Below are positions 56,832-61,436 of a stretch of 64,000 bases of DNA, one piece after another; the first letter of the stretch is position 1; each line of letters starts with the position of its first letter. The DNA comes from Brachyspira murdochii DSM 12563 (lineage in GTDB: Bacteria; Spirochaetota; Brachyspiria; Brachyspirales; Brachyspiraceae). Where the stretch lies: positions 2,541,510-2,605,509 of the forward strand of contig NC_014150.1 in the NCBI RefSeq assembly GCF_000092845.1. The letters run 5' to 3'. Below the pieces are notes generated by a model. That model was not told where the DNA came from. It saw nothing but the letters and a program-made list of their open reading frames with translations, and ran no database searches. The position numbers and the translations under genes are program-made.

Positions 56832-57166
56832 ATGAACAAAAAACTATTAAGTATTCTATCAATTTTATTTTTATTTAGTTTGTTAGTAATAAGCGATACA
56901 ACAGGTACAGCTGCATCTGTGGTACTTATGAGTATAAAAATAATAATATTACATAATATAGTGCAACAGTAGATGCAGATGGTATAGTAGTATCTTCTTC
57001 TGTAGGAGGATCTTTCAGTGTTGATAGTTTAGGCAATAGTAGTTTAACGAAAATATCAGATAATAATTATAAAAGCGGCTCTAGTGATTATCAATATTTT
57101 GAATTTACTGATGATACTCTTACAATAACTAAAAGTGATAACTCTAACAAAAAAACAGTACAATAA
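56832..57166 (+). pseudogene. decayed secreted/lipoprotein gene
   Basis: Good SD (AAGGAG) and signal peptide MNKKLLSILSILFLFSLLVI, but the frame stops after 46 codons. A shift of frame near 56920 gives CGTYEYKNNNIT, an in-frame TAA, then YSATVDADGIVVSSSVGG and FSVDSLGNSSLTKISDNNYK to a natural end at 57166. One frameshift plus one stop separate it from an intact small beta-rich lipoprotein gene. Confidence 0.6.
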
Positions 57167-57273: not shown

Positions 57274-57301
57274 TTGACATTATTTATATTTGTATTATGT
57301 T
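57274..57301 (+). promoter_or_regulatory. candidate upstream promoter of potABCD
   Basis: TTGACA, 16-bp spacer, TATGTT. It would give a leader of roughly 190 bases. Confidence 0.45.
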
Positions 57302-57367
57302 GATTAATTAATAATAAATGATTTATGCAATAGCTCGAGTAATGGATATTCTTTTAAGGTGTATCTG

Positions 57368-57398
57368 TTGACTAAGAAAGGCTTATTATTTCTATAAT
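57368..57398 (+). promoter_or_regulatory. candidate proximal promoter of potABCD
   Basis: TTGACT, 19-bp spacer (long), TATAAT. Transcription would start just before the structured leader. Confidence 0.4.
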
Positions 57399-57416
57399 TA
57401 GCTAGAACGAAAAAAA

Positions 57417-57490
57417 CCCTATGCGGGTAAGCGATATGTTATATACATGTAAATTTTACGGAGGCTGTTGCAAATATACGCATAGGGGGT
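57417..57490 (+). promoter_or_regulatory. structured leader covering the potA ribosome site
   Basis: CCCTATGCG (57417-57425) pairs perfectly with CGCATAGGG (57479-57487); the right arm runs into AGGGGGT, the potA ribosome site 7 bases before the ATG. The 53-nt interior has small hairpins (ATGT-TATAT-ACAT, GTAA-ATT-TTAC) and GGAGGCTGTTGC. It does not match any riboswitch I know. A polyamine-responsive or translational control element is plausible. Confidence 0.6.
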
Positions 57491-57496
57491 CATTTT

Positions 57497-58555
57497 ATGA
57501 GCGGTAATATTATCGTGTCTTTAAAAAATATCAATGTTTCATATGAAGAAAACTCCATATTAGAAAACTTAAGTCTTGATATAAAAGATAAAGAATTTTT
57601 AACTCTTTTAGGTCCATCAGGCTGCGGAAAAACTACCATACTAAGAACTATAGCAGGTTTTATAAAGCCTGATTCTGGAGAGGTTCTTTTTGACGGCAAA
57701 GTTATAAATGATACTCCTCCTTATAAAAGAGAAGTTAATACTGTTTTTCAGCGTTATGCATTATTTCCTCATCTTAATGTATTTGAAAATATAGCATTCG
57801 GACTTAATCTTAAAAAAGTTCCTAAATCAGAAATTAAAGAGAGAGTTTATCAGATGCTAAAAATGGTAAACTTAGAAAATTACGGAAATAGAAATATAGC
57901 AAGACTTTCAGGCGGTCAGCAGCAGAGAGTAGCTATTGCAAGGGCATTAATTAATAAGCCTAGAGTTTTACTTCTTGATGAACCTTTGGGGGCATTGGAT
58001 TTAAAACTCAGAAAAGAAATGCAGATAGAGTTAAAAAAGATTCAGCAGTCATTAGAAATTACTTTTGTATATGTAACTCATGATCAAGAAGAGGCTCTCA
58101 CTATGAGCGATACAGTTGCTGTTATGAAAGACGGAGAAATACTTCAGATTGGCACTCCTGAAGATATATATAATGAGCCTAAGAATGCATTTATAGCAGA
58201 TTTTATAGGCGAGAGTAATATTATAGATGGTATTATGCATGATGATTATATTGTAGAGTTTGCTGGGTATGTATTTGACTGTGTAGATAAGGGTTTTGAA
58301 AAGTTAGAAAAAGTTGATGTTGTTATACGTCCTGAAGATATAATAGTAGTACCTCCTGAAAGTGCTAATATATCTGGTTTGGTGGAATCTGCTATATTTA
58401 AGGGTGTGCATTTTGAAATGATACTCGATGCCCATGGTTATAAATGGATAATACATTCTACAGAAAAATGGGAGGCTGGCACTGAAATAGGAATTGATGT
58501 TGCAAAAGAAAATATTCATATAATGAAAAAAACAGCTAAAGAGGTGATAATATGA
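57497..58555 (+). CDS. potA: spermidine/putrescine ABC transporter ATPase PotA
   Basis: 352 residues. Walker [20 protein letters not shown]-loop [13 protein letters not shown], signature [17 protein letters not shown], Walker [17 protein letters not shown] and the H-loop [13 protein letters not shown]. The C-terminal TOBE domain has [11 protein letters not shown]. It powers polyamine import with PotB and PotC. It overlaps potB by 4 bases (ATGA). Confidence 0.96.
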
Positions 58556-59361
58556 AAACAAAAATACCTGCAGTACCTTATTTGATTTGGACATTAGTTT
58601 TTGTATTAGTTCCTCTTTTTCTAGTTATATATTTTGCTTTTACAAATCAGAAAGGTGATTTTACATTAGACAATTTTGCTAATGCTGCTTCTTTTACTCC
58701 AGTTATAGTGCGTTCTGTTATACTTGCAGCTGTTTCTACTTTAATATGCTTAATACTTGCCTATCCTTTATCATATTATATATCAAGGCAGGAGAAAACT
58801 ATTCAGCATGCCCTTATAATGCTTGTAATGCTTCCTATGTGGATGAACTTTCTTCTTAGAACTTATGCTTGGATGACTATACTTGAAAACAATGGACTTA
58901 TCAATAGAGCTTTGCTTTTTATGGGGCTTTCTCCAGTAAAACTTATTAATACTCAGGCAGCAGTTTTAATAGGTATGGTTTATAACTATCTTCCCTTTAT
59001 GATACTTCCTCTTTACTCTGTAATGACAAAGATACATAGCAGTTTGATAGAGGCTTCTCAGGATTTGGGTGCTAATTCTTTTAATGTATTTACTAAAATA
59101 ATTTTTCCATTAAGTATTCCGGGTATGGCGGCAGGCGTTACAATGGTATTTGTGGCGGCAGTTAGTACATTTGTTATTTCGCGTATGCTTGGAGGAGGAT
59201 CTAATATACTTATAGGCGATTTGATAGAGATGCAGTTTTTAGGAATGTCTTATAATCCTAATTTGGGTTCTGCTGTAAGTTTGGTATTAATAGTAATATC
59301 TTTATGTGCTATTGCTCTTATGCAGCAGATATATGAAGATGATGATGGTATGTTTTTGTAA
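58552..59361 (+). CDS. potB: polyamine ABC transporter permease PotB
   Basis: 269 residues, six predicted membrane helices starting [20 protein letters not shown]. The EAA loop [28 protein letters not shown] is clear (the two parts are contiguous). It forms the channel with PotC. It is followed 12 bases later by potC. Confidence 0.94.
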
Positions 59362-59373
59362 GGATATGCTGTT

Positions 59374-60180
59374 ATGATAAAGAAAATTCTCTCAAGAGGC
59401 TATATTGCTTTTATATTTCTATTTTTATATGCTCCTATAGCTATACTCATTTTCTTTTCATTTAATAAAGCTAGAGGGAGAGGTGTATTTACTGGATTTA
59501 CTTTGAATTGGTATAAAGAGCTTTTTTCTAATGATTTGATATTAAGTTCATTTGTTAATACTTTAATAGTAGCTTCTGTATCTTCTATACTAGCTACTAT
59601 ACTTGGTACTATGGCCGCTATTGGAATAAACAGTTTTAATAAAAAAATGAAAAGTGCTGTTATGGGCATTACCTATATATCTATAATAAACCCAGAAATA
59701 GTAACTGGTATATCTTTAATGCTTTTATTTGTTATAATGAAATTAAAATTCGGTTTTACAACTTTGATACTTGCTCATATAACTTTTAATGTTCCTTATG
59801 TTATACTTAATGTACTTCCAAAATTAAGACAGCAGGATAATAGTTTGTATGAGGCGGCTTTGGATTTGGGATGCACTCCTTCTCAGGCATTTTGGAAAGT
59901 GGTGATACCTGATATACTTCCGGGTATACTTGCTGGTTTTTTAATGGCTTTAACTTATTCATTAGATGATTTTGTTGTAAGTTATTTTACTTCTGGAATT
60001 ACTTCGCAGACTTTGCCTATAACTATTTATTCTATGACTAGAAAGCGTGTAAGTCCGGAGATTAATGCTATATCTACTGTTATATTTATAGTTGTGCTTG
60101 TAAGTTTAGTTATAATGAATTTGAAAGAGATAAAAAAAGAAAAATATTTGATTCAGCTAAAAAGAAAAAGAAGTAAATAA
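59374..60180 (+). CDS. potC: polyamine ABC transporter permease PotC
   Basis: 268 residues, six helices; the first is GYIAFIFLFLYAPIAILIFF. The EAA loop LYEAALDLGCTPSQAFWKVV precedes IPDILPGILAG, and SLDDFVVSYFTSG is the typical PotC segment. It pairs with PotB. Confidence 0.95.
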   Translation: MIKKILSRGYIAFIFLFLYAPIAILIFFSFNKARGRGVFTGFTLNWYKELFSNDLILSSFVNTLIVASVSSILATILGTMAAIGINSFNKKMKSAVMGITYISIINPEIVTGISLMLLFVIMKLKFGFTTLILAHITFNVPYVILNVLPKLRQQDNSLYEAALDLGCTPSQAFWKVVIPDILPGILAGFLMALTYSLDDFVVSYFTSGITSQTLPITIYSMTRKRVSPEINAISTVIFIVVLVSLVIMNLKEIKKEKYLIQLKRKRSK

Positions 60181-60233
60181 AAAAAATAAATAAAAAAGAT
60201 AATAAAAATTATATTTTGAAGGATAAAATAAAA

Positions 60234-61436
60234 ATGAAAAAAAAAGTTTTTGCTGTTTTAATGTTAATTGCCTTATCAGCAAGTGCTCAAACTGTTGACC
60301 TTAGCGTCTTTGATACTAATTATTACCATAAGTATAAAGGACAAAATCTATCGGTTAATGTTTATAACTGGGGCGAGTATATATCTGACGGTTCTGACGG
60401 CTCTCTTGATGTAAATAAAACTTTTGAGGAGCTTACTGGAATAAAAGTTAACTACTCCACTTTTGCCTCTAATGAAGAGATGTATGTAAAATTAAAAGTA
60501 GGAGGTATTCAGTATGATGTTATTATACCTTCAGACTATATGATAGAAAGACTTATTAATGAAAAATTAATTCAGAAATTAAATTATAATAATATACCAG
60601 CTCATACCAATATAGCTAATAGATTTAAAAACCTTCCTTTTGATCCTACAGGTGAGTATTCTTTAGCTTATACTTGGGGAGTAACTGGAATAGTTTATAA
60701 TAGACAAATGGTAACTGAAAATGAAGCTGATATAGATTGGGATATACTTTTTGATAAAAAATATAAAGGTCAGATACTTATGTATTATAACCCTAGAGAT
60801 GCTTTTGCAATAGCTCAGGCTTATTTAGGTTATTCGTTAAATACTACTAATGAAACAGAATTAAGAGAATGTGCAAGACTATTAAAAGAACAAAAACCTT
60901 TGGTACAGTCTTATGTAATGGACGAAATATACGACAAAATGGAAGCGGGTGAGGCAGCCCTTGGTGTTTATTATGCGGGTGATTCTCTTTCTATGATGGC
61001 AAGCAATCATGATTTAAATTTTGTTATACCTAAAAAAGGTGCTAATTTATTTGTAGATTCTATATGCATACCTTCAAACTCAGGTTCTCCGGAATTGGCT
61101 GAAATGTATATTAATTTCCTTTGCGAGCCTCAAATAGCTTTGGCTAATATAGAATATATTAATTATGCATCTCCTAATGACGGAGCTATCGCTATAATGA
61201 GCAGCGAAACTAAAAATAATAAAATAATATATCCAAATCAGGAAACTTTAGATAACTGCGAAGTTTATATAACATTGCCTGATGATACTAATATATTAAT
61301 GGAAGATTTATGGAATGAAATACTTTCTAATGATAATGCTTATAAAGGATGGGTAATACCTGTTGCTTTGGGTGTTATAGTAGTTCTTTGTGCTGTTATA
61401 ATAATACTTCGTAAAATGAAAAAAAGGGAAAATTAA
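60234..61436 (+). CDS. potD: polyamine-binding protein PotD with C-terminal membrane anchor
   Basis: 400 residues from the ATG at 60234 (AAGGA upstream). Signal peptide KKKVFAVLMLIALSASA, then the PotD fold: LSVNVYNWGEYISDGSDGSL, FEELTGIKVNYSTFASNEEM, GGIQYDVIIPSDYMIERLI, YTWGVTGIVYNRQMV. A hydrophobic helix (WVIPVALGVIVVLCAVIIIL) plus RKMKKREN ends the protein, so it is probably tethered to the inner membrane. Usual PotD is soluble or a lipoprotein. Confidence 0.93.
   Translation: MKKKVFAVLMLIALSASAQTVDLSVFDTNYYHKYKGQNLSVNVYNWGEYISDGSDGSLDVNKTFEELTGIKVNYSTFASNEEMYVKLKVGGIQYDVIIPSDYMIERLINEKLIQKLNYNNIPAHTNIANRFKNLPFDPTGEYSLAYTWGVTGIVYNRQMVTENEADIDWDILFDKKYKGQILMYYNPRDAFAIAQAYLGYSLNTTNETELRECARLLKEQKPLVQSYVMDEIYDKMEAGEAALGVYYAGDSLSMMASNHDLNFVIPKKGANLFVDSICIPSNSGSPELAEMYINFLCEPQIALANIEYINYASPNDGAIAIMSSETKNNKIIYPNQETLDNCEVYITLPDDTNILMEDLWNEILSNDNAYKGWVIPVALGVIVVLCAVIIILRKMKKREN

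Follow-up and report, generated by a model that had tools for sequence, protein, structure and literature searches.

A conserved structured RNA ahead of the Brachyspira potABCD operon as a candidate polyamine-responsive riboswitch

The potABCD operon of Brachyspira murdochii is preceded by a folded RNA of ~165–190 nucleotides, larger than the 74 nucleotides first noted, that spans positions 57326–57489 of the forward strand of the window (the whole stretch of 64,000 nucleotides analyzed here). Comparison with homologues indicates a conserved structured domain backed by covariation, one of the properties looked for in a riboswitch, and makes the leader a promising candidate for a new riboswitch that responds to polyamine. 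It would act as a cis-regulatory RNA in which two crossing helices, P1 and P6, control translation of potA. By a narrow balance, we think it probable that the leader is a cis-acting translational switch for potABCD through which polyamine shuts off import.

Results

The downstream genes are all on the forward strand and comprise potA (57497–58555), which encodes the ATP-binding protein of a polyamine importer and exceeds the NCBIfam potA cut-off (TIGR01187), and potB, potC and potD of the same operon (58552–61436). PotD matches solved spermidine/putrescine-binding proteins, and by these protein matches the operon encodes a polyamine importer. A spermidine synthase family match is present in the same genome. 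At its C terminus, PotD (60216–61436) has a hydrophobic segment that gives way to a basic tail (VIPVALGVIVVLCAVIIILRKMKKREN), which suggests a membrane-anchored binding protein, and the listed TTG start of potD may be too far upstream, MKKKVFAV being the likelier start. A similar C terminus is found in a second PotD-like protein (48% identity) encoded elsewhere in the genome (about 1727798; L079, 5227–6456); over the 8 kb read there, no potABC genes adjoin its gene, which also lacks the leader RNA. On the other side of the leader, between the upstream helicase gene and the terminator, an apparent small secreted-protein gene at 56833–57166 is broken by a frameshift, reading MNKKLLSILSILFLFSLL... 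and then ATVDADGIVVSSSVGG... in another frame.

A predicted sigma-70-type promoter, TTGACA-N16-TATGTT, lies at 57274–57301 on the forward strand (10 of 12 matches) and is conserved in Brachyspira leaders; from it, transcription would be expected to start near 57308, giving a ~190-nucleotide leader. Two candidate promoters had been proposed, and it is the upstream one, with its genus-conserved TTGACA at 57274, that stands. The second, which would give a leader of ~90 nucleotides, was discarded: its “−35” TTGACT is located within an invariant RNA stretch, and its “−10” falls in the variable hairpin P3 and is missing in several species. No terminator was found between the promoter and potA, and translational control is therefore favored.

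In leader alignments, a conserved block runs from GCAATAGC (57327) through GGGGG (57489) and thus begins far 5′ of the stem that was originally reported. The first covariance model, R1, scores 57326–57489 at 185.6 bits (E 1.8e-38), this sequence being itself a member of the R1 alignment. Folding of the single sequence stands out only modestly (z about −2.3 to −2.6 for pieces of 78–92 nucleotides), so weight is placed on the comparative evidence. The initial annotation had described an unrecognized structured leader of potABCD that fits no known riboswitch class, and apart from its size this description is borne out by strong conservation, by covariation and by a scan of the window and five homologous loci, in which no Rfam 15 family reached the gathering threshold. 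The best sub-threshold Rfam match (E 4.5) is inside potA and unrelated, and the SAM-I family gave no leader match, whether at the gathering threshold or with E allowed up to 5. In the open-licence literature searched, no description of the element was found, which is not proof that none exists.

The helix that first drew attention to the leader, P6, is a perfect 9-bp stem enclosing 53 nucleotides, in which the 5′ arm CCCTATGCG (57417–57425), an anti-Shine-Dalgarno sequence, is fully complementary to the 3′ arm CGCATAGGG (57479–57487). The 3′ arm does enter the potA ribosome site, as had been proposed, since it overlaps the Shine-Dalgarno sequence GGGGG (57485–57489), 7 nucleotides before the potA ATG (57497). 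At the same place, homologues have GGGGG, GGGAG or GGAG, and the distance from this region to the potA start is variable. Among dinucleotide shuffles of the leader, 9.4% contain a perfect 9-bp stem whose loop does not exceed 70 nucleotides, and only 0.05% contain one with at least five G/C on an arm. Across 23 distinct homologues, P6 is paired in 99.5% of cells; eight of its nine pairs are invariant, and the ninth shows one wobble and one mismatch, both from the sister genus. P6 is so nearly invariant that covariation is unable to test it. Lack of covariation in the stem had been named in advance as grounds for rejecting the leader, and none was seen; because the stem is invariant and its 3′ arm doubles as the ribosome site, that rule is not cleanly applicable here. 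The stem itself is therefore retained from the earlier picture, but it is merely the 3′ edge of 57326–57489, and that picture overlooked the diagnostic helix, P1.

P1 pairs the 5′ arm GCAATAGCT (57327–57335) with the 3′ arm GGCTGTTGC (57463–57471), which is located within the P6 loop. In a MAFFT alignment built without structure, P1 covaries best among 125 candidate helices. In a model-guided alignment, which is biased towards P1, the helix shows two-sided changes in four of nine pairs with 98% of cells paired; in the same alignment, the whole structure scores above almost every shuffle, and pairing falls from 97.6% to 45% or less when the partners are shifted by one to three columns. Both arms are changed in homologue L051 (AUCGGCAG and UUGCUGAU) and still form 8 bp, which is reached by 0.4% of shuffles, and the L051 arms pair better with each other than with arms swapped in from other species. 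Homologue L050 keeps a 5-bp P1, UCGGU/ACCGA, which is weak on its own, and the sister genus retains P1 with a different sequence. On this comparative evidence, P1 is backed by compensatory changes. As the 3′ arm of P1 lies inside the P6 loop, the two helices cross, and they would form either a pseudoknot or mutually exclusive structures.

Between the arms of P1, the consensus fold contains a P2 hairpin (TAATGGATAT/GTATCTGTTG, 57340–57370), which is mostly invariant and so weakly tested, and a P3 hairpin (57380–57403) of variable length whose pairing is kept in most species. For the 3′ strand of P2, pairing with CGACGAG instead was considered, and a comparison of own and swapped strands gave no clear support for it. 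An alternative hairpin, ACCC-TATGC-GGGT (57416–57428), is incompatible with full P6; it is invariant in Brachyspira, and its CCC/GGG is kept in the sister genus. The P4/P5 region (57430–57462) is a variable subdomain (72% identity) that is shortened in the subgroup to which the B. murdochii window belongs (L001–L004). A P4 loop pairing, TGCAG:CTGCG, is plausible in most species and is lost in this subgroup, which lacks both the CTGCGTTTTATACG stretch and the TGCAG of the P2 loop presumed to be its partner. This loss is a natural deletion and is informative on whether the CTGCGTTTTATACG–TGCAG contact is needed. A local pairing in the fold of the region originally noted, GCGATA:TGTTGC, was rejected as subgroup-specific, being kept in neither L024 nor the sister genus.

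The element is so far known from two genera, Brachyspira and one sister genus. An early DNA search located it in 24 of the first 25 Brachyspira genomes, and the covariance-model search in 25 of 26 Brachyspira species and both sister-genus genomes, with one convincing copy per genome; the sole Brachyspira genome without a match has potD on a contig that stops before potA. In every carrier, sister genus included, the element is directly upstream of potA. The third genus of the family has neither this PotD nor the leader RNA, and a second model that includes the sister genus (R2) gave no other convincing match among 393 genomes of the phylum. Three weak extra covariance-model matches (E 0.13–0.29) were taken as noise. 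A match in another family (L052, E 0.012) was attributed to chance: its alignment covers P1-like and tail letters only and omits the core, it does not precede a pot gene, and it is lost once the sister genus is added to the model. A BLAST search of plasmids with the element gave no match. A sequence-pattern scan of genome contigs found Brachyspira only, with a pattern too strict even for the sister genus, and is therefore no evidence of absence from other phyla.

The core blocks have 96–99% mean identity between Brachyspira species, compared with 69% at potA third codon positions, and the spacer before the element has 63%. Three of the near-invariant strands, GACTAAGAA, GAACGAAAAAA and GCGACGAG, are drawn unpaired, as would be expected of a ligand- or partner-binding core. 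Such long unpaired strands would suit a regulatory protein or small RNA that frees or blocks the ribosome site. This explanation is rather doubtful, given that no partner gene consistently adjoins the element in the loci examined and that crossing helices connected to the ribosome site are a usual trait of metabolite-sensing leaders. The same degree of identity, found in unpaired and paired blocks alike, bears on the idea of an RNA thermometer or passive stability structure: P6 masks the Shine-Dalgarno sequence and would melt with heat, but neither role needs this conservation or the long-range helix P1, and we regard both as very improbable.

Conservation of the short frame ATGGATATTCTTTGCAGGTGTATCTGTTGA (MDILCRCIC) also bears on whether a leader peptide is translated there, with polyamine acting on the ribosome. 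Leaders of this kind are known at polyamine genes, E. coli speFL being the example cited in PMC10319736, and the frame is open in most Brachyspira. Control by this uORF was nevertheless rejected because the frame is lost or changed in four homologues (truncated in L002 and L003, without its start in L051, and with another frame and end in L050). In addition, no Shine-Dalgarno sequence precedes it and its third codon positions vary no more than the remainder, making a leader peptide highly unlikely.

Discussion

In the mechanism that we propose for the potABCD leader as a translational switch, P1 would bring the 5′ end of the element together with the bases that immediately precede the ribosome site. 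In the free fold, P1, P2 and the ACCC/GGGT hairpin would form and the Shine-Dalgarno sequence would be accessible; in the masked fold, P6 would form, with P1 retained as a pseudoknot or replaced, and CCCTATGCG would hide the Shine-Dalgarno sequence. With the pseudoknot ignored, the predicted energies of the two folds are ~0.3–5 kcal/mol apart in nearly all Brachyspira; on the same terms, L024 and L051 favor the masked fold by about 8–10 kcal/mol and L050 is even. The likeliest signal would be intracellular polyamine, spermidine or putrescine, binding the conserved core and stabilizing the masked fold, such that potABCD import would be turned off when polyamine is plentiful. The comparisons establish the element, its conservation, P1, its placement at potA and the overlap of P6 with the Shine-Dalgarno sequence; the switching, the direction of control and the ligand are what we infer here, feedback repression of import by polyamine being the simplest logic.

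Polyamine sensing appears consistent with the exclusive association of the element with potABCD, but gene association alone does not name a ligand. The same RNA could be a riboswitch for a polyamine precursor, a SAM-related metabolite or a metal ion; all the structural evidence fits such ligands equally, polyamine being indicated by gene association only. We consider a non-polyamine ligand unlikely, as the element was found only at potABCD, whose proteins match polyamine importers. With polyamine as the preferred ligand, the leader may represent a riboswitch class not seen before, in which a distinct pseudoknotted aptamer with no relation to SAM-I would recognize spermidine or putrescine and control translation of the importer, a reading that we hold tentatively and at somewhat less than an even chance.

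Convincing natural polyamine riboswitches are few. In a 2023 report, the evidence for earlier polyamine-riboswitch claims was judged unconvincing, and the riboswitch described there, located at biosynthesis genes, is a variant of SAM-I (PMC10853860). Spirochaete riboswitches are almost uncharacterized, with one studied case named, and polyamine import is reported to be essential in Borrelia (PMC10319736). If our reading is true, a leader with a fold of its own that stays with the polyamine importer throughout a whole genus of gut spirochaetes would be a solution reached independently. The hypothesis can be tested directly, using a short RNA and inexpensive ligands.

Several known systems resemble the potABCD leader in part. 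The potC RNA motif RF01751 is likewise a candidate structured RNA named for a pot-type transporter gene, but it is listed as marine only (PMC2864571) and gave no Rfam match to the potABCD leader. The potE (WRC-18-1) motif of Veillonella, another candidate structured RNA, also precedes a gene for a polyamine transporter, but it is ~200 nucleotides from the gene, with poor covariation support and no obvious expression platform (PMC8632094). The 5′ RNA of Borrelia burgdorferi potB belongs to a spirochaete potABCD and is spermidine-responsive after transcription initiation; unlike the Brachyspira element, it starts within potA and its regulated 3′ end is inside the potB frame (PMC10319736). The spermidine riboswitch shares with our proposal spermidine sensing, off-switch logic and polyamine genes, but it is a SAM-I aptamer variant that acts by transcription termination at biosynthesis genes (PMC10853860), whereas the potABCD leader matches no Rfam family, is without a terminator and has a transporter as its target.

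The closest system in topology, and the comparison is at that level, is the odc1 (uORF-25-1) motif of alpha-proteobacteria (PMC8632094). That motif, in another phylum and before ornithine decarboxylase, has a conserved 11-codon uORF with paired UUG starts; no conserved short frame of this type was found just before the main start in potABCD leaders. Both RNAs adjoin a polyamine gene, have the ribosome site in the 3′ shoulder of a large-loop hairpin and pair the 5′ end with the loop in a pseudoknot (PMC8632094). In the potABCD leader, P6 provides the ribosome-site hairpin and P1 the pairing from the 5′ end to the loop, and the two helices may form simultaneously.
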